Origin: Anaerolineae bacterium
GTDB lineage: Bacteria; Chloroflexota; Anaerolineae; Aggregatilineales; Phototrophicaceae
Assembly (NCBI GenBank): GCA_022843745.1
Contig: JALHNB010000007.1
Location: forward strand, 1-64,000
DNA length: 64,000 nucleotides
Direction of reading: 5' to 3'
Below the pieces are notes generated by a model. It was not told the DNA's origin, searched no databases, and was given only the letters and a program-made list of their open reading frames with translations. Below are positions 2,476 to 60,543 of this stretch, piece by piece. Position 1 is the first letter of the stretch. Each line of letters opens with the position of its first letter. A program made the position numbers and the translations under genes.

Positions 2476-4050
2476 CTAACTTTCGCTCAATTTCCAGTAA
2501 TGCCCACCGACGTTCTGGAAATCGGGATTAGCCGCGAGCATGGCGAGTATCGGGCCGGGCGGACAGCGCTTGATGACGTTGACGGCGCTGTAAATGGTCT
2601 TGGCGTGTGCCGTTCCCTGGGGAGTCAAACGCCCCAAACCCGGTATGATCGTGCGCAAAATGGTCGCCAATGGCCGTTTTTGCTGTTGGGTGAGTTCGAA
2701 CAGGGCATCGACGGCTGCCAGATCATCCGCGCCCAGGATCATCAGATCATCATATTCCGCGCCAATATTGCGCTTGTGGTTATCAAAGCCAATCTGGTTA
2801 TTCTTGGGGACGATCAGGCGAATCCATTCGCTGCGGGCTTTGTAGGCGTTAAAATTGATGACGACTTTGCCGGGGGTATCGCTTTTAGAAATTGTTACGA
2901 GCGCCCCAATCGGCAAACGATGCTTGCGGAAAAATTTGTCCGCGCCAAAAACATAACGTTCTTTGCGCACTACCCAGGCAGGGTATTCCTCGCCGTCCTG
3001 ACCATCGACCAGAATGACGCTGACGCGCGATGTTTGCTGCGCGGTGGGGAAGACCAGCCGCATTTTGGCGTTCAGCGGCAGCGTACCCATTCGCCGATGT
3101 GGATAGTTCAGCGTGATGGTGGCTTCCTGAATAGAGTCCTGAATGTTCGGCGGTGGGGATAATTCGTCGTCGATCTCTGCTTCGAGTTCCAGCATTTCTG
3201 GCGTGAGCAGTGTGCGGTCATGGTCAACGGGTGTGTAGCGCAGCATGGTTGGTGTTTGCTGAACTTCCGGCGGTTCATGACTGAGCAGGAACCACAACAC
3301 CATTCCGGCGGGGCCAACTTCATCAAAGCGGCTGTCTTCGCGAAGGGCATGATTCATCGAGAACATCTGTAATTCGATGGATCCACTTCCCAGGCCGCCG
3401 ATTTCATTGACAATGCTTTCGGTATCCATCGGCTGATTGTTGATGTCGATCACCGCTTCAGCCAGATTGAGATGCCCTTCGTTGACCTCTAAAATGAGGT
3501 CGCGCGGGAACCAATGGCCGGAAACCTGAATCAATGCGTCTGTTTCACCCAGGCTGTTTTCCAGCGTATAGATGATGTCATCGCCGAACTGAACGATAAT
3601 CTCATCGGCTGTCAGTTCACCATCGGTGAGATAGGTCGCATAAGATTCGTTATCTTGCTGGCTCAACACATGAGGCACAGACAGATCAATCGCGAATTCA
3701 CGCACTTTTCTGCTGGCGTCTTCCTCAAATTCAACGCCCATGACATTGAAGGTGTTGTATTCCGGGTTGCTGCCTTCGCGGGTGTGAACGATGGTTGCGG
3801 TGGCGTAATCGAACGACGGAAAGATGACTTTCTGACCGACTTCGTAAGATTGTGACGGGTTATAAAAACGCGCGTCTTTATAGTGCGCTTGCAGGGCGGC
3901 TGTTTCCTGGGCGAGTCTTTCCTCAACCAACGCACGCGCCAATGCATCGGTTTTCATGGGCTTTTCGTGTTCCAGCAATAAGCTGGTCAGATAGTCCAGG
4001 TCTTCTTTTTCAACGGTGAAATTTCGCGCCCAATGTTGAACGGGTATCAA
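2476..4050 (-). CDS. Large hypothetical protein, 524 aa, first gene of the minus-strand operon
   Basis: A 524-residue acidic cytoplasmic protein with no transmembrane segment and no motif that I can assign. Residues 65-95 look like a small beta barrel (GQKVIFPSFDYATATIVHTR). The C-terminal third (about 440-520) includes a helical segment and ends NVGGHYWKLSES. The start used is TTG at 4050, with GGAGG 11 bases upstream, a rather long spacing, so an internal start cannot be excluded. A good promoter lies at 4122-4151. The compact arrangement with the 145- and 142-residue genes suggests the three act together. Confidence 0.65.
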   Translation of the reverse strand: MIPVQHWARNFTVEKEDLDYLTSLLLEHEKPMKTDALARALVEERLAQETAALQAHYKDARFYNPSQSYEVGQKVIFPSFDYATATIVHTREGSNPEYNTFNVMGVEFEEDASRKVREFAIDLSVPHVLSQQDNESYATYLTDGELTADEIIVQFGDDIIYTLENSLGETDALIQVSGHWFPRDLILEVNEGHLNLAEAVIDINNQPMDTESIVNEIGGLGSGSIELQMFSMNHALREDSRFDEVGPAGMVLWFLLSHEPPEVQQTPTMLRYTPVDHDRTLLTPEMLELEAEIDDELSPPPNIQDSIQEATITLNYPHRRMGTLPLNAKMRLVFPTAQQTSRVSVILVDGQDGEEYPAWVVRKERYVFGADKFFRKHRLPIGALVTISKSDTPGKVVINFNAYKARSEWIRLIVPKNNQIGFDNHKRNIGAEYDDLMILGADDLAAVDALFELTQQQKRPLATILRTIIPGLGRLTPQGTAHAKTIYSAVNVIKRCPPGPILAMLAANPDFQNVGGHYWKLSES

Positions 4051-16588: not shown

Positions 16589-17644
16589 ATGCACAGAAAT
16601 GACAAACTTGTGACCACGATTTACGCTACTCATCCCCGTTACCCTGAACATACGCTGACCGGACACCCTGAACACGCCGGGCGGATTCGCGCGGTCTGGC
16701 AGCAGATGGACGACCTGAAGACACGCTTGAAATCGGTTGTGCCGGAAGCGGTAACAACGGAAATGATTCGAGCCGTTCACACACAAGACTATTTTGACAT
16801 TCTACAATGGGTTTCAGCCTCCAATCAAAGCAATATCCGTCTCGATGGAGATACCTACGCTGATTCAGGTTCTTACGAGATCGCGCGTTTGTCCGCTGGT
16901 GGGGTGGTTCGCGCTGTCGATGAAGTTCTCAGCGGAAAGGCTGATAATGGCCTGGCGTCGGTGCGTCCGCCGGGACATCATGCCATGCCGAGTCATGCGA
17001 TGGGCTTTTGCATATTAAGCAATGTCGCCATCGCCGCGCGTTATGCCCAGAGTGTCTATGGAATCGAGCGCGTGATGATCGTCGATTATGACGTGCATCA
17101 CGGTAATGGGACGGAGGCCGCGTTTTACAATGACAGCAGTGTGCTTTTCATTTCGACTCATCAATATCCGTTTTATCCCGGCACAGGCTCAATCGAAGAT
17201 ACTGGCGAGGGTAAGGGAGTTGGCTATACGCTCAATATCCCACTCCCTGCCGGACACGGCGATCATAATTACGCGGCAATTTTTCGCGATGTGATCTGGC
17301 CTGCCGCCGAGCGATACCAACCCCAATTCATCATCGTTTCTGCCGGGTTCGATGCCCATTGGAATGACCCGCTGGCAATGATGATGTTGAGCTTAAAAGG
17401 CTATGACCATCTAACCCGCGAACTGATCCAAATGGCGCAAAAGCTGTGTGGCGGCAAAATCGTATTCGCGCTTGAAGGTGGCTACAATTTGGAAGCGCTC
17501 GGTCATGGTGTCCGCAATGTCGCCTATGCGCTGCTAGGGGATTCAACGATCAGCGACCCACTGGGGATGGCTCCCAACCCTCGTGAGCCGGAAATCAAAC
17601 CCTTAATCGACAGGCTGCGGAAAATTCACAAGCTTTCTTCATGA
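16589..17644 (+). CDS. Histone deacetylase-family protein (AcuC/acetylpolyamine hydrolase-like)
   Basis: A 351-residue zinc hydrolase that removes acetyl groups from lysine or polyamine substrates. The PPGHHAMPSHAMGF catalytic His pair is near 129-142. Zinc ligands lie in DYDVHHGNGTEAAFY (about 167-181) and SAGFDAHWNDP (about 251-261), and the family's glycine-tyrosine loop is in LEGGYNLEALG. Length fits the family. It diverges from the AAA ATPase and its end overlaps the convergent mgtC-like gene by 19 bases. Confidence 0.92.
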   Translation: MHRNDKLVTTIYATHPRYPEHTLTGHPEHAGRIRAVWQQMDDLKTRLKSVVPEAVTTEMIRAVHTQDYFDILQWVSASNQSNIRLDGDTYADSGSYEIARLSAGGVVRAVDEVLSGKADNGLASVRPPGHHAMPSHAMGFCILSNVAIAARYAQSVYGIERVMIVDYDVHHGNGTEAAFYNDSSVLFISTHQYPFYPGTGSIEDTGEGKGVGYTLNIPLPAGHGDHNYAAIFRDVIWPAAERYQPQFIIVSAGFDAHWNDPLAMMMLSLKGYDHLTRELIQMAQKLCGGKIVFALEGGYNLEALGHGVRNVAYALLGDSTISDPLGMAPNPREPEIKPLIDRLRKIHKLSS

Positions 17645-18093
17645 CTATTGGGCAGTCCTTCTTCGTCGTGATGACGCAGTGTTGCTTCATCCTTTGAAAA
17701 CCGCCGGATGAACGCCAGCACAATCCAGATGATAACCGTTGCGGACAGCGCCAGAAACCACGCACCTGTGCCGACAGCCATACCCATCGCTGCCGTGACC
17801 CAGATACTCGCTGCTGTGGTCAGGTCACGAACATTTTTCTTGTGCTGAATAATGGTTCCTGCGCCGAGAAAGCCTATACCGACGACAATCTGTGCCGCAA
17901 CACGGCCTGAATCAGAGCCGGGGAAGGCATGGATCGAGAGCAGCGTGAACAGACACGCGCCGATCCCGACCAGCATATGGGTTCGCAGCCCCGCAGGGCG
18001 ATTGCGGCGCTCCCGATCCATGCCGATAATCATGCTCAATAAAGCCGCCAGAATCAGGAAAAAGACGGCTTCCGCTTGTAGAGACAGCGACAT
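17626..18093 (-). CDS. MgtC/SapB-family membrane protein
   Basis: A 155-residue membrane protein with four predicted helices. The conserved core RVAAQIVVGIGFLGAGTIIQ (about 64-83) and LTTAASIWVTAAMGMAVG (about 91-108) are diagnostic of MgtC/SapB, which is linked to magnesium limitation and ATP synthase control in pathogens. The C-terminus is a short charged tail. It lies 44 bases after the end of the split dynamin-like gene on the same strand and may share its transcript. Confidence 0.9.
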   Translation of the reverse strand: MSLSLQAEAVFFLILAALLSMIIGMDRERRNRPAGLRTHMLVGIGACLFTLLSIHAFPGSDSGRVAAQIVVGIGFLGAGTIIQHKKNVRDLTTAASIWVTAAMGMAVGTGAWFLALSATVIIWIVLAFIRRFSKDEATLRHHDEEGLPNSHEESL

Positions 18094-18136: not shown

Positions 18137-18691
18137 TCACTGACTTTCTTCAATTCCCTTTCGCAGCGTCGTGATCTGCTCCTGATGCTGGCGGAAGGTG
18201 TTTTGCTGGGCGGTATAACGCTGCGCGAGAACATCCAGACGGCTAAAAATTGGTGTCAGCACTTGTTTGCCATATTGCGTCAGGCGGTTGCGTTCTTTTT
18301 GCGTCAGGTCATTGAGCGCGGTGTGATAGCTTTTTTCCACCTGGTCGATGCGCTCGTTAAAGTCGCGCTTGGTATCCGATACGATGCGATTGTAGTAACG
18401 TAGGGCAGCAATACCTCCACCAATTGCCAGCGGTGCGCCGATCACAAATGCCAGCGTTGCCGTTGCATAGATCACGCCCGCGCCAATGACACCGCCAGGT
18501 GCGGCAATCGCCAGAATCGTCAGGACAAGGCCGCCGAAAGCTGCCGCTGCCCAGGTCGTGAAATTGTTCATGTTGCCCTGGAAATTTTCCTGAATCTCGT
18601 TCACGACTTTGCCAGTCGAATAAGATTTGAGTTCCGATTCGGCAATACGAATCGCCTCTTGCAGGCTTTCGCGCTGTTCGGCATAAACGCC
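18137..18691 (-). pseudogene. Membrane/C-terminal part of a dynamin-like protein, separated by an in-frame amber codon
   Basis: Directly after the TAG at 18692-18694 the same frame stays open for 184 codons. It begins GVYAEQRESLQEAIRIAESE and continues through two membrane segments (AAFGGLVLTILAIAAPGG and ATLAFVIGAPLAIGGG) and a coiled C-terminal helix ending GIEESQ. This is the membrane-insertion and stalk region expected downstream of a bacterial dynamin GTPase domain; the 625-residue neighbour has the same layout uninterrupted. The first usable internal start in frame is GTG at 18604, without a good ribosome site. It could be a lost C-terminus, a separately translated subunit, or the tail made by readthrough. 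Confidence 0.75.
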
Positions 18692-19915
18692 CTAATCCAG
18701 TCCGCTTAACTCCTGTTCCAGCAAATCGCGCAGTTGGTTCAGACGCTCAATAATGCCGCGCCAATACAAACGACTCTGGTCGATCACGGCGTTGATATAG
18801 CCGCCCGTCGCCTCGTTAATATCGCGCATGGCTCGCCCGATCACGACCTCCTGAAACTGGCTTTGCAGGGCTTCGCGCGAAGGCATCCGCCCGATTTTGC
18901 GCGGCGAAAGATTCGAGTCGATGAAGGTGATTCCGCGCTGGCGCATCCCCTCGAAAACCGCGTCGATTTCCGCACGCGCACCTGCAAGCTGTGAATCGAG
19001 GCCGCCTGCTTGCTTTTCGAGTTCCTGCTGTACCTCGCGCACTTTCGCTGTGTCCGCGCTTACCAGATCGGCCTTGCCCTGGATACCATCCTGGTAGCGC
19101 TTGACAACGTTTTCAGCCATATCTAGCTGCGCCAGTAATTTTTGTTTAGCGGGTGGCGCTTCGCTAAAGACTCCGCGCAGGTGCGCCCGTATCGCTTCGA
19201 TATTGCCGGAGTCAGGCTGACCGTTGCGTGCTGCGGTGAGCGCTTCCCGCGCAGATACCATAAAAATCAGTGGGCGTAGATCGAGCATTTCTTCCGCTTG
19301 TCGCTCGATAAAACGCCGGACTTCCTGCTGTTCCTTTGGCTGCAACAGATCAATCTGATTCACCACCAGGATGATCTTTTTGCCGTAATTTTTCGCCAGT
19401 TCCAGATAAAGCCGTTCGGTTTCCCCAAAGGCGCGTTTGGCCGAAATGAGGAAAATGACGAGATCGCTGCGGTGCAAAAATGCCTTTGCGACGGACTCAT
19501 GTTTCTGGAAGACCGAGCCTGTACCTGGGGTATCGACCATCGCCACACCGGGTGCGCCTGTATTCGGATGCGTCCATTCGCGGATTCCGTCTTCGCGCAT
19601 GGTCGGCTTGCGGCTGATCGTATCGCCGTAACGGATCAATTCAATCGCCTCAGTCGTCGGTGTCACGCCCACTGGCAGCAGTTCGTCACCCAATATCGCG
19701 TTGACGAACGAGGATTTCCCAGCATTAAATTCGCCGATGACCGCCACCAGGAAAAAAAGATCGCGTAAGTCATAGGTGACATCCTGCAAGCGCTTGCGAT
19801 CTTCCTGGGTAGTATCGCCCATTTCCGCCAGCGTGGCGGCGATGTCCCCCAGAAGTCGAATTTCGGATTCACGTAAGGCCGCTAACGGCCCGTCCAATGT
19901 CAATGTTGTGTTCAA
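18692..19915 (-). CDS. Dynamin-family GTPase, truncated by in-frame TAG before its membrane domain
   Basis: A 407-residue GTPase. The P-loop GEFNAGKSS is at 61-69, switch/G3 is VDTPGTGSV and G4 is NQIDLL, followed by a long helical region (about 230-400) as in bacterial dynamin-like proteins. The stop is TAG at 18692-18694, immediately after SGLD, and the frame continues open to 18137. Without the amber codon the protein would be 592 residues, close to its 625-residue neighbour. The start is TTG at 19915, nine bases after that neighbour's stop, so both are likely translated from one mRNA. As encoded it lacks the membrane-binding segment. Confidence 0.85.
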   Translation of the reverse strand: MNTTLTLDGPLAALRESEIRLLGDIAATLAEMGDTTQEDRKRLQDVTYDLRDLFFLVAVIGEFNAGKSSFVNAILGDELLPVGVTPTTEAIELIRYGDTISRKPTMREDGIREWTHPNTGAPGVAMVDTPGTGSVFQKHESVAKAFLHRSDLVIFLISAKRAFGETERLYLELAKNYGKKIILVVNQIDLLQPKEQQEVRRFIERQAEEMLDLRPLIFMVSAREALTAARNGQPDSGNIEAIRAHLRGVFSEAPPAKQKLLAQLDMAENVVKRYQDGIQGKADLVSADTAKVREVQQELEKQAGGLDSQLAGARAEIDAVFEGMRQRGITFIDSNLSPRKIGRMPSREALQSQFQEVVIGRAMRDINEATGGYINAVIDQSRLYWRGIIERLNQLRDLLEQELSGLD

Positions 19916-19924
19916 TTTAGCCTC

Positions 19925-21802
19925 TTAGCCTCTCAATCCAGACAACAGCCCTTTTTTACCCAAAGCTGCCAGCGCCGCTTCGATACCGACCATTTCCTGC
20001 TCGGCGGCCTGTAGTTGGTTCATTTGATCCGTTTGTGTTTGCGTTTGCGCTTCGATCAGGCGGGTGAGGGGGGCAATCGAGTCGCGCCGCAGTTCTGTTC
20101 CATAGGTCACTTGTTTGTCCGCTGCTTTGGTCAGCGCTTCAATATAGCGGGCTTGCAGCGCCAGCATTCGGTTGGTATAGGTCGTTTCCATTATGCGCCC
20201 GCGTATGGGTATCATGACCAGTCCCAGCAGACCTAAACCGATCAGCAAAATCAGAAGAATAAATGGAAGCTGTGGCTGACTTTGAGCGACTTGCCCCCAG
20301 ATATTGAGTAAAGCAATCCCAAAAACGATCAGCAAAATCTCGTAAACCGCCAGATAGAGCATCGTGTTTTTGACGGCCTGATCGAGTTTTTCGACCTCAA
20401 CGACCTGCGCCTCATTTTCAATCACTTCCAGATCAGCACTCACTTTTTGCAGCGGTGTCCGGTCATATTGCAGCGGCGCTTGAATATTGCCGATGACTTT
20501 CTGGCGAATAGAAGATGGGAGCGCACCGACTTCTTTGTGGGCATATTTTACAAGATCGTCAATATCCTGAATATCCTTGCCTTCCAGTCGTGGCGCGAGC
20601 TTATTGACGATTGTCGGCAGTTCATGGATAGGCTCGAAAGCTTTGCGTTTATCAAACGCGGTGTGAATGTAGGACACGTTACCCTGTGTCCGCCGCAGCA
20701 AGCCCGACAGCCCGATAAGCTCGACTACGCCGCGCGTAAACAAGCCGATTCCCTGCGAGAAGCGAAACACATCGCGAATCGCCTCGCTGCCGTTCATCGC
20801 CGCCGCGCCGAATTTCGCGCTCACCTCGGCGCTGGTATCGCGGATGATTTTTTCCTGTTCGCGTTTTTGCGCGGCAAGCTGCTGCTCGATATTGCTGGAA
20901 ATATTCTGATAATGATCGAGCGCGGATTGGTTCGTGCGGACTGCTACCAGCGCCGCCTGACTCACGTTTTGCGTGATTTGCAGCGGTGTCCGCAGCTTTT
21001 GTCGCAGGCGGTCAACATCGCCAAGCTGCTCGTCAATATATGCTTCAATTTTATTCAGGCCGCTGGCTTGCCATAGTTCCTGGTTGAGCGTACCGCCTTC
21101 AGATGCCGCTAAAGCCTGTCTCGCTGAAATCATCCAGATTTCCGGCTCGAATCCCAGTTTCGCTTTGCTCTGGTCGAGGACATATTCGCGCACGGAGTTA
21201 GCTTCTTCCGGCGTGAGCAAATCGACCTGATTGATGACCAGGATCACTTTTTTGCCGTACTCTTTCAATGTTTGCAGATATTCCATATTACGTGCAGTCA
21301 TGGCCTGTGTTGCCAGCATCACCAGCAGCACGACATCGCTGCGATGCAAAAATTTGCGTGTTGTGTCTTCATGTTTCTGGAAGACTGATTCCAGACCGGG
21401 CGTATCGACAAAGCTGACTTTTTTAAGCAGTGGCGAGGGGTAAAAAACCGCATCCACGTCACCGCCGGACGATAAACGCTGCGATTCTTCGCCCCAGCGC
21501 AGAATGCTGATTCGATCTGTCGTCGGCACAACGCCCACGTGCAGCAAATCCTGCTTGCCGAGCAGTGCGTTGATAATGCTCGATTTGCCGGAGCTAAACG
21601 GCCCCACGAACACCATCAGATAGGGGTGATCGGCGTGGAAGAGGGCATCGCGCACCTGCGCCACGCGATCTTCGGGCAGGTTATCGACCTTTGGCAGCAC
21701 TTCCAGTAAATTGGTAATTAATTCGTACTCGCGACGGCGAATTGCTTCATAATCCGTCGCCAGTTTTGTTTCCAGGTTCTCAGCGACCAATACGTTACCC
21801 AT
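19925..21802 (-). CDS. Dynamin-family GTPase with membrane segments
   Basis: A 625-residue bacterial dynamin-like protein. The P-loop GPFSSGKSS is at 67-75, with VDTPGLESV (G3) and NQVDLL (G4). A helical neck follows, then two adjacent transmembrane segments near 480-535 (YLAVYEILLIVFGIALLNIW and LPFILLILLIGLGLLGLVMI), and a C-terminal coiled segment rich in Gln (TQTQTDQMNQLQAAEQEM). Such proteins tubulate or fuse membranes, and tandem pairs are common. Here it is the first gene of a pair whose partner is split by a stop codon. Roles in membrane stress or phage tolerance are known for some homologues; none is proven here. Confidence 0.9.
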   Translation of the reverse strand: MGNVLVAENLETKLATDYEAIRRREYELITNLLEVLPKVDNLPEDRVAQVRDALFHADHPYLMVFVGPFSSGKSSIINALLGKQDLLHVGVVPTTDRISILRWGEESQRLSSGGDVDAVFYPSPLLKKVSFVDTPGLESVFQKHEDTTRKFLHRSDVVLLVMLATQAMTARNMEYLQTLKEYGKKVILVINQVDLLTPEEANSVREYVLDQSKAKLGFEPEIWMISARQALAASEGGTLNQELWQASGLNKIEAYIDEQLGDVDRLRQKLRTPLQITQNVSQAALVAVRTNQSALDHYQNISSNIEQQLAAQKREQEKIIRDTSAEVSAKFGAAAMNGSEAIRDVFRFSQGIGLFTRGVVELIGLSGLLRRTQGNVSYIHTAFDKRKAFEPIHELPTIVNKLAPRLEGKDIQDIDDLVKYAHKEVGALPSSIRQKVIGNIQAPLQYDRTPLQKVSADLEVIENEAQVVEVEKLDQAVKNTMLYLAVYEILLIVFGIALLNIWGQVAQSQPQLPFILLILLIGLGLLGLVMIPIRGRIMETTYTNRMLALQARYIEALTKAADKQVTYGTELRRDSIAPLTRLIEAQTQTQTDQMNQLQAAEQEMVGIEAALAALGKKGLLSGLRG

Positions 21803-26028: not shown

Positions 26029-26102
26029 TGGTGATAGCTGGGCTCGAACCAGCGACCTTACGATTATGAGTCGTACGCTCTAACCAGCTGAGCTATATCA
26101 CC
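26029..26102 (-). tRNA. tRNA with CAT anticodon (Ile2 or elongator Met)
   Basis: A 74-base cloverleaf. The acceptor stem GGTGATA pairs with TATCACC and the discriminator is A. The anticodon stem TACGA/TCGTA encloses loop CTCATAA with anticodon CAT, and the T arm is GCTGG/CCAGC. No CCA is encoded. The anticodon and T arms resemble the tRNA-Ile whose C34 is changed to lysidine (compare the bacterial Ile2 consensus), but elongator tRNA-Met cannot be excluded by eye. It is transcribed together with the upstream initiator tRNA. Confidence 0.9.
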
Positions 26103-26124
26103 CTACACTGGTATTGATTTGTGA

Positions 26125-26196
<72 letters not shown>

Positions 26197-26207
26197 ATAT
26201 GTTGAGT

Positions 26208-26924: not shown

Positions 26925-26988
26925 TTGATAAAAATTCCCCAACAGGTGTATGCTTATCCCACACACCTTCATTCTTTTGAATCGAATC

Positions 26989-27861
26989 ATGAGCCATATT
27001 TTTGTTAGCTATTCTAGCACCAATCGCCCTCTCGCACTGCGCCTCGTTGAAAACCTGGAGCATTTTTTTAAAGTCTGGATTGACCGCGAAGGCTTGGACG
27101 GCGGGGCAGCCTGGGAGCAAGCCATCGACGAAGCGCTCAAAGACTGCGCGGTATTTGTAGTTCTCGTCTCGCCCCAATCGAATGACTCGCAGTGGGTGAG
27201 GCGTGAAACCATCCGCGCCGAACAGCTTAAAAAAGTTCGCATCCCGATTTTGCTTGAGGGCGAACTCCCGCTTCGCTTGCTGGACATCCAATTTGTTGAT
27301 TTTCGAGGTGATTATGATGGAGGCCTGCGCGATCTGATGGAAGTGCTGCAAGATCACATGAGTCCTGAGCAGAAGAATCAAAGCGAAATTGACCGCTTAA
27401 TCGGCTCAGGCATTCGCGCCTATCTGAACGGCGATATTTCCTCCGCGAACAGCCTGATTGGGCAGGCCGCGACGATGGGAAATGACATTGCCGATAAGCT
27501 GAATGAACTCTGGCAGCATTTGATAGGGGATCGCGAAGAGGATTTAGCCACCGACTTGATGGGCAGTATTAGCATTCTGGAGAAGGCAAAGGCCGCCGGG
27601 AAATTCGCCAATGGAAACACACGATACGAGTGGAGTGTTGAAGTTGAAGCGCCGGATGCCGTCCTCGATCAAATCGACCACGTGAAATATGAGCTTCACG
27701 AATCGTTTGCAGTTCCGGTGCAAATCCTGCGTGATCGCCTGACACACTTCCGCCTGAGTGCGAGTGGGTGGGGAACATTTGACATCCAGATCGAAGTCCA
27801 TTTTAAAGATGGAACTGTTGGCTCAACCGACCACGAATTAACGTTCGAATCGGCATTTTGA
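26989..27861 (+). CDS. TIR-domain protein with C-terminal pYEATS-like domain
   Basis: A 290-residue protein. The N-terminal TIR domain (1-130) begins MSHIFVSYSSTNR and has the WxxxE feature SPQSNDSQWVRRE, in which Glu73 is in the position of the catalytic acid of NAD-cleaving TIR domains. A helical linker (about 135-205) follows. The last 85 residues match the prokaryotic YEATS pattern: RYEWSVEVEAP, IDHVKYELHESF, FRLSASGWGTFDIQIEVHF, DHELTF. The start at 26989 is chosen because TIR domains begin there; an upstream ATG at 26950 would add 13 residues. pYEATS modules are known from predicted conflict systems, so an immune or stress-effector role is likely. Confidence 0.82.
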   Translation: MSHIFVSYSSTNRPLALRLVENLEHFFKVWIDREGLDGGAAWEQAIDEALKDCAVFVVLVSPQSNDSQWVRRETIRAEQLKKVRIPILLEGELPLRLLDIQFVDFRGDYDGGLRDLMEVLQDHMSPEQKNQSEIDRLIGSGIRAYLNGDISSANSLIGQAATMGNDIADKLNELWQHLIGDREEDLATDLMGSISILEKAKAAGKFANGNTRYEWSVEVEAPDAVLDQIDHVKYELHESFAVPVQILRDRLTHFRLSASGWGTFDIQIEVHFKDGTVGSTDHELTFESAF

Positions 27862-44851: not shown

Positions 44852-45022
44852 AAAAAAGCCCGCCATGCCGTGTGTCGCGTGTTTTGAACCTGCTTTCGCA
44901 GGGGCGGGTATCTTGCCGGCGATTGGGCCTTGGCCGAAGCCTATCGCCTGAACACCGGAATCGATACCCTTCATTAGGGTGTTGGCTCAAAACGGGATGC
45001 GCCATCACGCGCACGGCAGGTC
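44852..45022 (-). ncRNA. ssrS: 6S RNA
   Basis: About 171 bases that fold into a long rod. On the minus strand the outer stem TGCCGTGCGCGTG pairs with CACGCGACACACGGCA, and GTTTTGA pairs with TCAAAAC. A central bubble follows with GCCAACACCCTAA on one side and, on the other, a small hairpin CCTGC-GAAA-GCAGG. The inner stem is GGGTATC/GATACCC and GGCGAT/ATCGCC, capped by GGCTTCGGCC. A large bubble with a minor hairpin on its 3' side is the known 6S RNA layout that mimics an open promoter and holds RNA polymerase. A T-run ends the RNA and a near-perfect promoter precedes it. Confidence 0.82.
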
Positions 45023-45028
45023 TTCTCT

Positions 45029-51268: not shown

Positions 51269-52900
51269 ATGATCCAGGCAGCAGCCAAGACCGAAAATAC
51301 ACAGTCGGCACTCATCTCCGTGAACCGTATTTTGATGGCCGCCGCGCTCGTTATTTTATTTTTCTATTTTGTGGTCTATGTCGTCTATGCCGCCAATCTG
51401 ATTCAGTTCCCGTTTGATTATGACCAGGGCGAAGGCTTTGAACTGGTGGACACGATTTTGTTCAGCCAGGGAAAATGGCCGTATCTTGATACTAATGTTT
51501 ACCCGTTCTATTCGAGCAATTATCCGCCGTTGTTCCACGTCATTGCTGCGCCGTTCGTCTGGTTTTTCGGCCCGGCCTATTGGTATGGGCGGTTGCTCGG
51601 TTTTCTCGGAACCCTGGTTACGGCATGGGCGATTGGTTACGCCGTTTATCGCGATGGTCAGCATAAACTGGTCGCGATTTTGTCCGGGCTGGCGTTTTTG
51701 GCCTCGAACACGGTGTATCACATTGGGCCGCTGTTTCGCCAGCATATGTCGATGGTGATGTTCGAGATGTTAGCCGTGCTGATGCTGGCACATGCCAATG
51801 AAATTGTCGATAAACAAAAACGGCGGCGAGCGTTCATCGCGGGAATCGTGTTTATCATCGCGGCGGGCTATACCAAACAGCTTGCTTATGCGACGGCGAT
51901 TGCTGCGTTGGCGTTTCTGTTCATTCGCAACCCACGCCGGGGCATTATTTCCGCGCTGATTTTGGCGTTAGTGGGTGGCGCGATTTTCGTGGGCATCAAT
52001 GTGGCGACCAACGGGCAGTGGTGGTTGCAAACGGTTGCCGCTAACGTCAATGATTTTTACCCTGACCAGACGATGGGGTTATTTCGCTTATGGTTTGGTC
52101 TGCACGGATTTTTGTTGATTCCGGCGGTTCTATACGTCATCTACGAATTCTATTTTGACCGACTTTCGATCTACAGCTTATGGTTTGTCGCGGCGACGGC
52201 TAACAGCATTTTGTCCGGCAAGTGGGGCGCGGGTGACAGCTATTTCGCGACGGCGATTGCCGCGATGTGCGTTCTCAGCGGGCTTTTTGCCGCGCGGACG
52301 TTGACCGGACAATGGCATTTCGCACCGAATTATCTGACGCGATTTCTGATTAACCCATTTCGGCGGTTCGCGCCGCTGTTGATGAGCGCCGGATTCGTCA
52401 TCATTCCGCTGTTGTATATTGGTTATGGGCGGGCAGTGCTGCATATGCCGACAACAGGTGCAGTTTTCGAGCCACTCTCGCAAATTTTAGGCATCGAGGC
52501 CAACGCGCGGAATGGATTTTACGATTCCGCTGGACGCATCGCGGGTGGATATGCCGACATCGGGCATCTGACGACACAAGCCGATATTGACGGCGGAAAC
52601 GCGATTGTTGATCTGGTCAAATCGACGGATAAGCCCGTTTTGAGCGAAGAGGCGGCGTTTAATCTGCTGGCGGGCAAAGAAGTGATTACGAACCCGACTC
52701 AGCTTTTGAATCTCGCCAATAACGAGAGCTACGATGGCAGCGCTTTGATCGCGATGATCGAAAATCAGGAATTTGGCCTCATCGTTCTCCGCGCCCAGTT
52801 CTATCCGCCTGCGATTTTACGCGCGATTGGGGACGCTTACTCGCACGAAGAAGAAGTGGCGATGAACGGGTTTAACTATATCATTTTGCGTCCGAAGTGA
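51269..52900 (+). CDS. GT-C type membrane glycosyltransferase-like protein
   Basis: A 543-residue polytopic membrane protein. After the first helix (about 22-45) an extracytoplasmic loop carries the acidic motif FDYDQGEGFE (about 49-58), in the place where GT-C enzymes (ArnT/PMT/GT39-like) hold their catalytic Asp. The following YPPLFHVIAAPF segment and about ten more helices support this family, which uses polyprenyl-phosphate sugars. A soluble C-terminal part (about 400-543) follows. The sugar and acceptor are unknown. Confidence 0.75.
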   Translation: MIQAAAKTENTQSALISVNRILMAAALVILFFYFVVYVVYAANLIQFPFDYDQGEGFELVDTILFSQGKWPYLDTNVYPFYSSNYPPLFHVIAAPFVWFFGPAYWYGRLLGFLGTLVTAWAIGYAVYRDGQHKLVAILSGLAFLASNTVYHIGPLFRQHMSMVMFEMLAVLMLAHANEIVDKQKRRRAFIAGIVFIIAAGYTKQLAYATAIAALAFLFIRNPRRGIISALILALVGGAIFVGINVATNGQWWLQTVAANVNDFYPDQTMGLFRLWFGLHGFLLIPAVLYVIYEFYFDRLSIYSLWFVAATANSILSGKWGAGDSYFATAIAAMCVLSGLFAARTLTGQWHFAPNYLTRFLINPFRRFAPLLMSAGFVIIPLLYIGYGRAVLHMPTTGAVFEPLSQILGIEANARNGFYDSAGRIAGGYADIGHLTTQADIDGGNAIVDLVKSTDKPVLSEEAAFNLLAGKEVITNPTQLLNLANNESYDGSALIAMIENQEFGLIVLRAQFYPPAILRAIGDAYSHEEEVAMNGFNYIILRPK

Positions 52901-54192: not shown

Positions 54193-54485
54193 CAATGTAA
54201 TAACTTTTCAAAAACGTTGATCTGGAAAAGTACACATCAAAGCGATGTTCAGAGAGCCACCGGTTGCTGTGAAGGTGGCACAAGCGCAGATGGGGAATGG
54301 GCCAGGGAGTTGCGCGGGCGAAGTCATAGTAGCCCAAGCCGGAGGGCGCACCGTTACCAAAGCGCAGGATATCGGCTTATTGCCCGTATCTGATTGAGCG
54401 CTTGTGGCCTATGGGCCGCGAGAACCAAGGTGGCACCGCGGGAATCCCTTCTCGTCCTTGTATGGACGTAGGGATTCTTTTTATT
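54193..54485 (+). promoter_or_regulatory. T-box riboswitch (tRNA-Trp) controlling the trp operon
   Basis: The leader carries the T-box core AAGGTGGCACCGCGG (54427-54441). A terminator overlaps it: GAATCCC 54442-54448, GGGATTC 54471-54477, then TTTTT. Stem I shows the conserved AGAGAG...GGTTGCTGTGAA distal elements (54251-54272) and a specifier loop GAATGGG whose triplet TGG at 54298-54300 codes for Trp. Uncharged tRNA-Trp pairing with TGG and with the T-box bulge would favour the antiterminator and allow transcription of trpE and the following genes. Confidence 0.92.
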
Positions 54486-54508: not shown

Positions 54509-56029
54509 ATGGCTTTTTCACCTGCCGCTCCGCGTACCCGCACGAGCGCCAAGCCAAGCCGAGCCGAAGTTCGCAAGCTGTTTGAGCAGGGCGATCTGGT
54601 TCCGGTCTACCGCACAATGCTGGCTGATCTCGAAACGCCAGTGTCCGTTTATCTCAAATTATCCCAACTCGGCGATCATTCTTTTTTGCTCGAAAGCGTT
54701 GAAGGCGGCGAACAGGTCGGACGCTATTCGTTTTTGGGCGTTAATCCTAAAGGCGTGGTGACGGTCAAGGATAATGTCGTCACGCGCGTCATTCATGGCG
54801 AGAAGACCACACGCACACTTGAAGGACGCGAAAATCCGCTGCTGGCGGTCAAGGATGAGTTCAGCCGGGTCAACCCGGTCAAAATCGAAGGTCTGCCGCG
54901 TTTTGTCGGCGGTGCAGTCGGTTTTATGAGCTATGATGTGGTGCGCTATTTCGAACGCCTGCCCGATACGGCCTCCAAAGACCTCGATGTGCCGGACGCG
55001 GCGTTTTTGCTGCCGGATACGCTGGTGATTTTCGACCACGCCAAGCATCAGCTTATTCTGCTGGCGAACGCGCATAATACAGGCGACCCGGACGCGGCCT
55101 ATGATGACGCGCTCTACCGTATCGACCAGATGATGGATGTGCTGCGCAGGCCGCTGCCCTATATCCCCGAAAGCGGTCATCCACTCAACGAAGAAATTAA
55201 ATCGAATGTTTCCCGTGAACAGTATGAGGAAAATGTCCGTGCGGCGAAGGAATACATCGCCGCTGGCGATGCCTTCCAGATCGTCCTTTCGCAACGACTC
55301 AGCCGCCGGACGAGCGCACAGCCCTTGACGATTTACCGCGCGTTACGGGCGTTAAACCCCTCACCGTATATGTTTTATCTGCGATTTGGTGATGACCTGA
55401 CGCTGATGGGCGCATCGCCGGAAATGATGGTGCGGCTTGAGGACGGCGTGGCAACCGTGCGGCCTATCGCCGGGACACGTCCGCGCGGTGTGACCGATGA
55501 AGAAGATGCAAAACTGGCTGAAGAACTCATGTCTGATCCTAAAGAACGCGCTGAACACGTCATGCTCGTTGATCTGGGACGCAACGATCTGGGCCGAGTC
55601 TGCAAATATGGCACAGTCAAAGTACCGAAGATGATGTATGTCGAGCGTTATTCGCATGTGATGCACATCGTCAGCCAGGTTGAGGGGCAGCTTAACCCGA
55701 ACATGGATGCGTTTGATCTGTTGGCGGCGACCTTTCCGGCTGGCACACTCAGCGGTGCGCCGAAATTTCGGGCGATGGAAATTATCGAAGAACTTGAAGG
55801 TACACGCCGGGGATTATATGGCGGCGCCGTTGGTTACTTCAGCTTCGATGGCTCGATGGATACCTGTATCACCATTCGTGCGCTGCTGATGCAGGACGAC
55901 ACCGTTTATATCCAGGCGGGCGCGGGCATCGTCGCCGACAGCGACCCCGGCAAGGAATACGAAGAATCATTGAATAAAGCACGTGCGGTATCGACTGCGA
56001 TTCGCCAGGCCGAAGAAGGCTTGAGCTAG
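54509..56029 (+). CDS. trpE: Anthranilate synthase component I
   Basis: A 506-residue chorismate-using enzyme that makes anthranilate with TrpG as glutaminase. The N-terminus keeps the tryptophan feedback region (FLLESVEGGEQVGRYSFLG, about 57-75). The catalytic half has AFQIVLSQRLSRR, the GTRPRGVTDEEDAKLAEEL segment and AGTLSGAPKFRAMEIIEELE, all typical of TrpE. GAGGAG precedes the ATG. It is the first gene after the T-box leader. Confidence 0.96.
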   Translation: MAFSPAAPRTRTSAKPSRAEVRKLFEQGDLVPVYRTMLADLETPVSVYLKLSQLGDHSFLLESVEGGEQVGRYSFLGVNPKGVVTVKDNVVTRVIHGEKTTRTLEGRENPLLAVKDEFSRVNPVKIEGLPRFVGGAVGFMSYDVVRYFERLPDTASKDLDVPDAAFLLPDTLVIFDHAKHQLILLANAHNTGDPDAAYDDALYRIDQMMDVLRRPLPYIPESGHPLNEEIKSNVSREQYEENVRAAKEYIAAGDAFQIVLSQRLSRRTSAQPLTIYRALRALNPSPYMFYLRFGDDLTLMGASPEMMVRLEDGVATVRPIAGTRPRGVTDEEDAKLAEELMSDPKERAEHVMLVDLGRNDLGRVCKYGTVKVPKMMYVERYSHVMHIVSQVEGQLNPNMDAFDLLAATFPAGTLSGAPKFRAMEIIEELEGTRRGLYGGAVGYFSFDGSMDTCITIRALLMQDDTVYIQAGAGIVADSDPGKEYEESLNKARAVSTAIRQAEEGLS

Positions 56030-56041
56030 AAAGGGGATTTT

Positions 56042-56692
56042 ATGACAGTTAAACGGGTAATTTTTATTCGGCCTGGTGAGACGGATTGGAATAGCTTGGG
56101 GCGATGGCAGGGCTGGGTGGCCTCCCCGTTGAATGAACATGGCAAAGCGCAGGCGTTGGCGCTGGCAAAATATATCCGCAATATCGGCCTGAGCGCACTG
56201 TATTCGAGCGACCTTCAACGCGCAGTCGAAACGGCTCAACTTCTGGCGGAACGGCTGGAATATGCGCCGATCTTGGATGGGCGTTGGCGTGAACGCGACA
56301 TTGGCAAATGGCAGGGCATGACGATCAGCGAGATTCGCGCATGGTATCCCGGCGAATATGAGCAGTTGCAGGCGGACATTGAAGGCTATCGTGTGCCGCA
56401 GGGTGAATCACGCGCGGACGTGAAAAAGCGCGTTCTGGAAGCGTTTAATGACGTGCTGAAGGATGCTAAGGGCAATACAGTTGGTATCCTGACGCACACG
56501 ACAGCGACGCATATGCTTTTGGAAGCGCTGATCCCCGGCTACGATGTCTACGGTGTGGTGCTGGGAAACACCTCGGTGACGACGATTGCGCGTGCTGATT
56601 CGGGTCAATGGGAAGTTGTGACCGCAGACGATTTATCGCATCTGGAAGGGCTGCCAAGCGGCTCGGTAGGCGAATTGGAGCAGAAAAAATGA
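56042..56692 (+). CDS. Histidine-phosphatase-fold protein with RPG instead of RHG
   Basis: A 216-residue member of the phosphoglycerate-mutase-like superfamily. The first motif reads IFIRPGETDWN: the nucleophilic His of RHG is Pro11 (codon CCT). Later conserved features remain: SDLQRAVETAQLLAERL, WRERDIGKWQG and LTHTTATHM with the second His. Loss of the phospho-accepting His makes normal catalysis unlikely. It lies between trpE (12 bases) and trpG (ATGA overlap), so it is an integral member of the operon. Confidence 0.88.
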   Translation: MTVKRVIFIRPGETDWNSLGRWQGWVASPLNEHGKAQALALAKYIRNIGLSALYSSDLQRAVETAQLLAERLEYAPILDGRWRERDIGKWQGMTISEIRAWYPGEYEQLQADIEGYRVPQGESRADVKKRVLEAFNDVLKDAKGNTVGILTHTTATHMLLEALIPGYDVYGVVLGNTSVTTIARADSGQWEVVTADDLSHLEGLPSGSVGELEQKK

Positions 56693-57273
56693 TTTTGGTG
56701 ATTGATAATTACGACAGCTTTACCTACAACCTCGTCCAGGAAATGGGCGAGATGGGCGCGGAATTGTGCGTGATCCGCAATGATGAAATTACGCTTGACC
56801 AGATTCGCGATATGAATCCGGCCAAAATTGTCATCTCGCCGGGACCGGGTACTCCAGATGACGGGGGTGTCTCGCTGGATGTGATCCGCTATCTGGGTGA
56901 GACGATCCCGATTCTGGGTGTGTGTCTGGGGCATCAATCTATTGGGCAGGCCTATGGCGGCGTGGTCAAACGCGCACCCCGGCTGATGCACGGTAAAACC
57001 AGCATGATTTATCACAAAGGTGATGCGCTTTTCGAGGGCGTATCAAATCCATTTGAAGCGACACGCTACCACAGTTTGATTGTGGAGGAAGCGACTCTGC
57101 CAGACGTATTGATGGTTACGGCCTATACTGACGAGGGCGAAATCATGGGGCTGCGGCACAAAACGCTGCCAGTCATGGGTGTGCAGTTCCACCCGGAGAG
57201 CATCTTAACAAGCGCCGGTCCACAAATTCTGCGCAATTTTCTTGAGATGAAAGAAACTGTGGCGGTGTCGTGA
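56689..57273 (+). CDS. trpG: Anthranilate synthase component II (glutamine amidotransferase)
   Basis: A 194-residue class I glutaminase that feeds ammonia to TrpE. It starts MILVIDNYDSFTYNLVQ, keeps the nucleophile in GVCLGHQSIGQ (about 77-87) and ends with HPESIL carrying the His and Glu of the triad. The start at 56689 is the family N-terminus and overlaps the upstream stop as ATGA; a longer upstream reading is a frame accident. Confidence 0.96.
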   Translation: MILVIDNYDSFTYNLVQEMGEMGAELCVIRNDEITLDQIRDMNPAKIVISPGPGTPDDGGVSLDVIRYLGETIPILGVCLGHQSIGQAYGGVVKRAPRLMHGKTSMIYHKGDALFEGVSNPFEATRYHSLIVEEATLPDVLMVTAYTDEGEIMGLRHKTLPVMGVQFHPESILTSAGPQILRNFLEMKETVAVS

Positions 57274-58313
57274 TGGATATTCAACGCGCGATTGATGTAA
57301 CCAGCCGCTTTGGGCATCTTCAGCAGGAAGAAGCCGAGGCGGTGATGAATCAGATTATGAAGGGCGAGGCTACCGATGCGCAGATCGGCGCGTATCTGAT
57401 GGCTTTGCGCATGAAGGGCGAGACTCAGGACGAAATTGTCGGCAGCGCCCGCGCCATGCGTGCTAACGCGCATCATGTGCCAACGCGAGCAGAGGGCGAC
57501 TTGCTCGATACCTGCGGCACGGGTGGGGATCGTTCCGGCACGTTCAATATCAGCACGACGGTGGCGTTCGTAGCCGCCGGGGCGGGGATGCGAGTCGCCA
57601 AACACGGCAACCGTGCCGCCAGCAGCAAATGTGGCAGCGCCGATGTACTGGCGGAATTGGGCGTGAATCTTGACCTGACACCAGAGCAGGTTGGGCAATG
57701 TGTCGATGAAGTCGGCATCGGCTTTATGTTCGCTGTGAAGATGCACCCGGCGATGAAATTTGCGATTGGGCCGCGCCGTCAGATGGGGATTCGCACGATT
57801 TTCAATATTTTGGGGCCGCTGACCAATCCCGCAGGCGCACAACGGCAGTTGATGGGCGTGTTTACAGGCGATCTGACCGATATGCTGGCGCACGTGTTGG
57901 GCGCGTTGGGGTCAAAATCGGCGTTCGTCGTCAGTGGATATGGCGGGCTGGATGAATTGACGACGACAGGCCCGAATCATGTCAGCCATTTTCATGATGG
58001 CAAAGTGGAGTCGTATGACCTGAAGCCGGAAGATTATGGCTTCGCTGGTGCGCATATTTCTGACCTGCTGGGCGACGATCCGCCGACTAATGCGGCGATT
58101 CTGCGCGGGATTCTGGACGGCACGGTGGACAGCGCGAAACGTGATGTTGTCGTGCTGAACGCGGGCGCGGCGATGGTGGCGGGCGGGCTGGTCGATAATC
58201 TGGCGGATGGCATCACGCTGGCACAGAAGACGATTGACAGCGGCGCGGCACTGGCGAAACTGGACGCGCTGATCGCTTGCAGTCAGAAATTGGCGAGCGC
58301 GAGCGTCAATTAA
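57273..58313 (+). CDS. trpD: Anthranilate phosphoribosyltransferase
   Basis: A 346-residue enzyme transferring phosphoribose to anthranilate. The PRPP-binding loop is DTCGTGGDRSGTFNISTTVA (about 79-98), with KHGNRAASSKCGSADVLAEL following and GPLTNPAGAQRQLMGVF (about 171-187). Length is typical. A GTG one codon earlier is an alternative start; ATG 57273 overlaps the trpG stop (TGATG). Confidence 0.96.
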   Translation: MDIQRAIDVTSRFGHLQQEEAEAVMNQIMKGEATDAQIGAYLMALRMKGETQDEIVGSARAMRANAHHVPTRAEGDLLDTCGTGGDRSGTFNISTTVAFVAAGAGMRVAKHGNRAASSKCGSADVLAELGVNLDLTPEQVGQCVDEVGIGFMFAVKMHPAMKFAIGPRRQMGIRTIFNILGPLTNPAGAQRQLMGVFTGDLTDMLAHVLGALGSKSAFVVSGYGGLDELTTTGPNHVSHFHDGKVESYDLKPEDYGFAGAHISDLLGDDPPTNAAILRGILDGTVDSAKRDVVVLNAGAAMVAGGLVDNLADGITLAQKTIDSGAALAKLDALIACSQKLASASVN

Positions 58314-58315
58314 AA

Positions 58316-58358
58316 AGCGCAACGCAGAGGCGCAAAGAAGTAGAGGCGCAGAGAAGAA
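58316..58358. repeat. AGGCGCAAAG/AGAGGCGCAGAG repeat between trpD and trpC
   Basis: A short stretch of GCGCAACGCAGAGGCGCAAAG and AGAGGCGCAGAG, related in wording to the inverted repeat after ligA. It is the only sizeable gap inside the central trp genes and may be a remnant of a dispersed repeat. Confidence 0.5.
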
Positions 58359-58360
58359 TT

Positions 58361-59167
58361 ATGTTTATAAAAACAGATACGATACTTGATAAGATTCTGG
58401 CACATAAAGTTGAGGAAAATGCCGAAAACCTGCGGCATAAATCGCTTGATTCGGTGATAGAGGCGGCAAAGTTGGCAGTACCGCCGCGCGATTTTGCCGC
58501 TGCGCTGCGCCGAGATACTGTCGCGCTGATCGCTGAGGTCAAAAAAGCATCTCCGAGCAAAGGTGTGCTGATCGAAAATTTTGACCCGGTTATCATCGGT
58601 ACGACTTATGCGCAAAATGGCGCATCGGCGATTTCGGTGCTGATCGACGAGCAATTTTTTCAGGGGCATATTCGCTATCTGACGGCGATCCGGCAGGCAG
58701 TGGATGTGCCGCTGCTGTTCAAAGAGTTTGTCGTCGATCCCTATCAGATTTATGCAGGGCGGGCGGCTGGCGCGGACGCGGTGTTGTTGATCGTCGCCGC
58801 GCTGGAAGACTCGCAGCTTGCGGATATGCACGCGCTGATTCGCGAGTTAGACATGGTAGCGCTGATCGAGGTACATAATGAAGCGGAAATGGAACGCGCC
58901 TTAAAACTCGGTGCGACATTAATCGGTGTGAATAACCGTGATCTGAAAACATTTCAGGAGGATTTAGGCACGACGGCGCGGCTGGCGGCGCTTGTCCCGG
59001 CTGACGTGACACTGGTCGCGGAGAGCGCGATTCGCAGTGTGGATGATGTGCGGCGCATGGGTCAGTCCGGCGCTCACGCGATTCTGGTGGGCGAATCGTT
59101 GGTGAAATCGGGTGATATGGCGCAGCAGGTTCGCGAATACAGCAGCCAACCGCGAGGAAAAGCATGA
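58361..59167 (+). CDS. trpC: Indole-3-glycerol phosphate synthase
   Basis: A 268-residue TIM-barrel enzyme that closes the indole ring. Key pieces are LIAEVKKASPSKGVL (about 49-63), FKEFVVDPYQIYAGRAAGAD, LIEVHNEAEMERAL, IGVNNRDLKTF and the phosphate-binding VAESAIRSVDDV. The start at 58361 matches the family N-terminus. TrpF is a separate gene, so this is not a TrpCF fusion. Confidence 0.96.
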   Translation: MFIKTDTILDKILAHKVEENAENLRHKSLDSVIEAAKLAVPPRDFAAALRRDTVALIAEVKKASPSKGVLIENFDPVIIGTTYAQNGASAISVLIDEQFFQGHIRYLTAIRQAVDVPLLFKEFVVDPYQIYAGRAAGADAVLLIVAALEDSQLADMHALIRELDMVALIEVHNEAEMERALKLGATLIGVNNRDLKTFQEDLGTTARLAALVPADVTLVAESAIRSVDDVRRMGQSGAHAILVGESLVKSGDMAQQVREYSSQPRGKA

Positions 59168-59862
59168 CCATTTTTCAGTATCACCCGGAAATCGCGGAAC
59201 GTTTTCCGACTTTGATCGGCGGGATTATCGTCGCCGAGGGGATGAAAAACACGCTAACGCCGGAGGCACTTCTGAAACAATATCAGGCGCAGCAGCAGAT
59301 CATCGCGCAGCGCGGCGATGGCTCGTTGAGCGAAATTCCCGCGTTGGCGGCGTGGCGGCAGGCTTTTCGAAAATTTGGCGTTGATCCGACGAAATATCGC
59401 AGCGCGAGTGAATCGCTCACACGGCGCGTGATCAAAAAGGGCGATATTCCGAGCATCAACACGTTGGTGGACATCGGTAATCTGGTGAGTATCCGCTATG
59501 CGCTGCCCATTGCGGTTGTGGATCGACGTGCGATACAAGGCGCGATCACGGTACATTTCGCCGACGGCAGTGAACGTTATACGCAGTTGGGGCAGGACGA
59601 GGCGGATCGTCCGCAGGTGGGTGAAGTTGTTTTTACGGACGAGACGAACACCGTGTTCGCGCGGCGCTGGTGCTGGCGGCAAAGTGCGGAAAGCGCGGCG
59701 ACTCTCGAAACGACTGAGGCTGTGATTACGATTGAGGCGCACCATGCCGAAGGTCGCCAGGATGTCGAAAAGGCGGTGGCGGATTTGGTGAGTTTATTCA
59801 CAGAATATGCGGGTGGAAGCTATAAACATGCTATATTGGATGCGAAGAATCTATCCATTTGA
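59164..59862 (+). CDS. B3/B4 (PheT tRNA-binding-like) domain protein
   Basis: A 232-residue protein made of the B3/B4 domain found in phenylalanyl-tRNA synthetase beta chain and in free-standing proteins. The supporting parts are AAWRQAFRKFGVDPTKYRSA (about 59-78), SLTRRVIKKGDIPSINTLVD and IGNLVSIRYALPIAVVD. The B3/B4 fold in PheT edits mischarged tRNA; whether this free form edits, and which amino acid it sees, is unknown. ATGA overlap with trpC makes it operon-encoded. Confidence 0.85.
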   Translation: MTIFQYHPEIAERFPTLIGGIIVAEGMKNTLTPEALLKQYQAQQQIIAQRGDGSLSEIPALAAWRQAFRKFGVDPTKYRSASESLTRRVIKKGDIPSINTLVDIGNLVSIRYALPIAVVDRRAIQGAITVHFADGSERYTQLGQDEADRPQVGEVVFTDETNTVFARRWCWRQSAESAATLETTEAVITIEAHHAEGRQDVEKAVADLVSLFTEYAGGSYKHAILDAKNLSI

Positions 59863-59871
59863 GCGTGAATA

Positions 59872-60543
59872 ATGATGAATACTCGTGTAAAAATCTGTGG
59901 TTTGACAACATTTGGGGATGCGCTGGCGTGTGCTGAGGCTGGCGCGGATTTACTCGGCTTTAATTTTTTCAAGCGCAGCCCGCGCTATATCGAGCCAGTA
60001 AAAGCGTTGGCGATCTGTGATGGTTTGCGTCAGCAGTTGGGTACGGGTTGCCCGGTATTGGTGGGCGTATTTGCCAACGAGATTGTCGGGACGATTTCGG
60101 CAGTGACGATCAAGGTCGGATTGGCATTCGCCCAATTAAGCGGCGACGAATCCGATGAAATGTTGAAGGAGCTGCGTGGCATCGGCTTCAAGGGGATTCG
60201 TCCGATGAACAAGGCGATGGCGATGGAGGACGTGAATTATTATCGTCCCTATTTTCCGGTTAACGAGCGTGTGCCGTCGCTGCTGCTCGATGCTTATCAC
60301 CCCAAGCTCTATGGCGGAACAGGCGAACAGGCCAGCACTGAAGTTGCGGAGGCCGTCAAAGCAGAAGTGCCGCGTTTGATGCTGGCGGGTGGGCTGACAC
60401 CGGAAAATATTGCGGGACGAGTGCAGGCGATCCAGCCCTGGGGCGTGGATGTCGCCAGCGGGGTCGAGCCAACAGACCAGCCGGGTGTAAAAGATCATGG
60501 CAAAGTGAAAGCGTTTATTCAGGCAGCGAAAACCGCATCCTGA
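59872..60543 (+). CDS. trpF: Phosphoribosylanthranilate isomerase
   Basis: A 223-residue TIM-barrel isomerase that converts phosphoribosylanthranilate to the substrate of TrpC. The conserved KICGLTTFGDALACAEAGAD (about 7-26), FNFFKRSPRYIEP and the final GLTPENIAGRV with GVDVASGVEP fit TrpF. ATG at 59872 or 59875 are both plausible. It follows the B3/B4 gene by nine bases. Confidence 0.93.
   Translation: MMNTRVKICGLTTFGDALACAEAGADLLGFNFFKRSPRYIEPVKALAICDGLRQQLGTGCPVLVGVFANEIVGTISAVTIKVGLAFAQLSGDESDEMLKELRGIGFKGIRPMNKAMAMEDVNYYRPYFPVNERVPSLLLDAYHPKLYGGTGEQASTEVAEAVKAEVPRLMLAGGLTPENIAGRVQAIQPWGVDVASGVEPTDQPGVKDHGKVKAFIQAAKTAS

Follow-up and report, generated by a model that had tools for sequence, protein, structure and literature searches.

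A private in-frame TAG in the second of two tandem bacterial dynamin-like genes, probably a recent nonsense mutation

In Campylobacter jejuni, the genes of two dynamin-like proteins (DLPs), Cj-DLP1 and Cj-DLP2, lie side by side, and their products are built of a GTPase domain, a helical neck and trunk, and a lipid-binding tip; deletion of the Cj-DLP1 trunk abolishes liposome binding while assembly is kept (PMC6104087). A second arrangement is that of LeoA, which lies beside LeoC/LeoB, a DLP split within its GTPase domain into two genes, as conserved across species (PMC4159319). Here we describe a tandem DLP pair, named DLP-A and DLP-B, found on the minus strand of a 64,000-nucleotide stretch of a Chloroflexota (Anaerolineae) genome (contig JALHNB010000007.1, positions 1–64,000), hereafter the window. 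DLP-A (19925–21802), upstream, is intact at 625 residues, in keeping with the complete neighbor described by the initial annotation of this DNA, and 9 bases separate its end from DLP-B. The DLP-B frame (19915–18137), of which 592 residues align with orthologs, is interrupted by a single in-frame TAG at codon 408 (18692–18694). Its 5′ part (18692–19915) opens with a TTG codon preceded by a Shine-Dalgarno-like AGAGGC and encodes 407 residues, comprising the GTPase domain and the first stalk helices, whereas its 3′ part (18137–18691) consists of 184 sense codons for a stalk helix, a hydrophobic tip, and a long C-terminal helix, closed by a TGA at 18139–18137. Translation thus reproduced both the position of the stop and the stop-free extension that had drawn attention to the locus.

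The pair is embedded in a neighborhood common to many relatives (decarboxylase, GAF-cyclase, DLP-A, DLP-B, MgtC, deacetylase, and AAA genes), in which the MgtC family gene directly downstream (17626–18093, minus strand) is kept in many of them. No obvious break was seen in the other scanned genes of the window. A search of the genome found no further full copy of DLP-B that might serve as a redundant intact one. The window also carries a TIR domain joined to a prokaryotic YEATS domain (26950–27861, plus strand), two open reading frames of 524 and 543 residues (2476–4050, minus strand, and 51269–52900, plus strand) devoid of Pfam matches, a 6S RNA match over the Rfam gathering score (44853–45025, minus strand), and a tryptophan biosynthesis gene cluster (54509–60543) with a T-box leader directly upstream (54208–54462, plus strand, 117 bits).

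Both genes match the Pfam dynamin family. DLP-B carries a dynamin-type GTPase domain (PF00350, E-value 2.8e-23) with the G1, G3, and G4 motifs GEFNAGKS (residues 61–68), DTPG (128–131), and NQID (186–189), nearly all invariant, and it is paired in tandem with a second DLP gene, as in bacterial DLP pairs. Past the stop, a hydrophobic stretch at about residues 452–506, with room for two membrane segments, is flanked on either side by long helices, in agreement with the two membrane segments and coiled end that had been assigned to these codons. A structural model of the frame read through the TAG, for which 29 orthologs were used (mean pLDDT 79, pTM 0.63), shows a G domain and long stalk helices, together with a hydrophobic tip near residues 471–500 that is poorly modeled and a long C-terminal helix (495–590). 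The structures nearest to this model are those of mitofusin/Fzo1 and of bacterial DLPs, the mitofusin matches extending to the C-terminal helix; the best Z-scores of the full-length model, 25.5–25.6, were obtained with mitofusin/Fzo1 (299–319 residues aligned, r.m.s. deviation of 3.5–4.1). Neck, trunk, and membrane tip occur in one chain only in this read-through model, since the chain translated with table 11 ends before the tip. Codon 408 falls in a modeled loop between helices 362–401 and 407–434, so a TAG-ended product would be devoid of both the tip and the returning helix.

None of the relatives compared shares the stop, which is thus private. Orthologs align with DLP-B over all 592 residues, the nearest being 77% identical, which identifies the open extension past the TAG as real coding sequence rather than a chance frame. 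From 65 extracted sequences, 53 distinct ones were left once copies from two collections had been removed, and 52 of them have a residue at codon 408: all 52 carry a sense codon there, chiefly Ala or Ser, and none a stop, which answers the initial annotation's question of whether the stop is conserved. Among the 35 relatives placed in the tree, the residue is Ala in 27, Ser in six, and Lys and Thr in one each, and three of these close relatives use the Ser codon TCG, one base away from TAG. No stop inside DLP-B other than the window's own was present among the matches listed in searches of 61 and 98 genomes.

The codons past the stop show no sign of relaxation on the window lineage at codon positions 1 and 2. 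The 3′ part of DLP-B is less conserved in amino-acid identity than the 5′ part, and this drop is about as large in the window as in its relatives. In a tree of 36 sequences based on these positions, the window branch has a length of 0.093 for the part before the stop and of 0.136 for the part beyond it, in line with the tree totals of 4.67 and 6.35, respectively, and the normalized post-stop ratio on the window branch is 0.76 (bootstrap 0.40–1.19, 12 taxa). The selection test that had been proposed for the extension, run here on codon-position rates, thus reveals no decay, but it does not separate a recent stop from an error or from a 3′ part still in use; a tolerated stop is the least likely of the three. 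Codon-position rates are too noisy to date the stop, the interval on the implied neutral fraction being very wide, and the near saturation of third positions softens any bound on its date. With the nearest ortholog at 77% identity and no congeneric genome, the only bound on the age of the stop is a long branch.

We consider that the TAG probably arose by a recent nonsense mutation in the second gene of the pair. The stop is private, the orthologs are intact, and DLP-B bears no other damage, as in a recent nonsense pseudogene. The change would be of a single base, most simply from the Ser codon TCG to TAG at codon 408, and translation would yield a GTPase of 407 residues that retains the first stalk helices but is devoid of the membrane tip and of the C-terminal helix that folds back on the neck. 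The Cj-DLP1 trunk deletion supports, by analogy only, a loss of membrane binding in DLP-B. This protein has probably lost its function or kept little of it, which would leave DLP-A deprived of its partner; the 3′ part would still look intact owing to the short time since the mutation. Such a loss seems tolerable and the gene dispensable: DLP-B is frameshifted in four relatives (near residues 264, 480, 492, and 546, and in no case at 408), and most genomes of one genus (g18) are devoid of the DLP-A/DLP-B pair. Whether biological or technical in origin, DLP-B loss or damage is thus nothing out of the ordinary among these assemblies. Counting the window, five DLP-B genes have frame breaks versus no obvious one in DLP-A, which appears intact in nearly all listings of relatives; the excess stands only as an observation from those listings.

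The initial annotation had put forward four explanations, of which a recent nonsense mutation and a sequencing error both fit a stop that is private, sense in relatives, and one base from a Ser codon. In favoring the former, we infer that the TAG base is real; the assembled sequence by itself does not tell a base-calling or assembly error from a real change. That the TAG is a one-base consensus error, the true DLP-B being intact, is a distinctly less probable explanation, though one to be taken seriously. It would account for the change of one base, private to this genome and flanked by sequence that shows no decay on either side, and the frame breaks scattered over the four relatives point to a possible general background of assembly errors in such genomes; those breaks are frameshifts, however, while the TAG is a substitution, and the unbroken state of the other scanned window genes also speaks against it.

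The remaining explanations assume that selection keeps the 3′ part, with DLP-B acting either as a soluble GTPase accompanied by a low-level read-through membrane form or as two pieces reassembling at the stalk loop. Taken together they are very unlikely. A translated 3′ part would, like a recent mutation, show no decay, but neither readthrough nor a two-piece DLP has any positive evidence of its own. TAG works here as an ordinary stop of the standard code. RF1 was found (513 bits versus a cut-off of 423), none of the 46 tRNA genes of the genome has a CUA anticodon as assigned by ARAGORN, and TAG terminates 17 of 52 selected open reading frames of the window, the 5′ frame of DLP-B included; on these observations we reject TAG reassignment as unsupported. 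Pyrrolysine is likewise rejected, as the PylS profile scores 25 bits, below its cut-off of 178, and also gives weak matches in the ordinary genomes of a control list. Where other window frames stay open very far past their stop, they run into an in-frame neighbor having its own start. Bacterial tRNA-Tyr usually has a long variable arm; the genome carries a second tRNA-Tyr (GTA), on another contig (C35), of only 73 bases and 42.5 bits and devoid of such an arm. Two adjacent tRNA-Met (CAT) genes lie in the window at 26029–26197 (minus strand).

Programmed readthrough, producing the soluble GTPase and, at a lower level, the full-length membrane form, would agree with the unchanged frame and the intact, apparently constrained 3′ part, but no relative conserves the stop, no suppressor tRNA accompanies the intact RF1, and PylS stays under its cut-off, so that we regard it as highly improbable; the published literature, when searched, yielded no case of readthrough in a bacterial dynamin. 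For separate translation of the 3′ part, no ATG, GTG, or TTG with a clear Shine-Dalgarno motif was found near the stop: the first of these codons in frame past the TAG is the GTG at 18604, 30 codons on, with no clear motif, and the ATG at 18571 has a weak one only. ATT is a rare start codon, and the ATT at 18646 lies a short distance from an AGAGGC that is itself within conserved coding sequence. A two-subunit DLP, in which a separately made 3′ chain would associate with the GTPase chain in the manner put forward for LeoC/LeoB, has a precedent (PMC4159319), and the predicted inter-helix loop might tolerate a cut, but with these poor starts, no relative split at codon 408, and a precedent that is split in the GTPase domain and conserved across species, it is the least credible explanation of all.

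The best reading of the locus is a pair of ordinary, well-conserved bacterial dynamin-like membrane-remodeling GTPases, with no new way of making protein. Its significance is then mainly a matter of annotation, namely the interruption, in a single genome, of one member of a conserved dynamin pair. Should the stop prove real and fixed, the lineage would offer a natural example of such a pair cut to one partner, and the family overall suggests that losing the pair is possible; were readthrough or reassembly true, the regulation of this dynamin would be unusual.

Among known systems, the Cj-DLP1/Cj-DLP2 pair resembles the locus in its side-by-side genes and in sequence: the PDB chain 5owv_A, from this pair, is the best sequence match of both window genes, and further bacterial DLPs are also among their best solved relatives. 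Identity is low, however, and DLP-B has a stop before its tip. The mitofusins and Fzo1, by contrast, are eukaryotic, are known from truncated constructs, and share about 16% identity with DLP-B. With LeoA and LeoC/LeoB the locus has in common a DLP in two reading pieces next to an intact DLP, whereas the DLP-B stop interrupts the stalk and is private. The recent nonsense pseudogenes of bacteria share with DLP-B a single private stop and an intact rest of the frame, and we found no difference from them.
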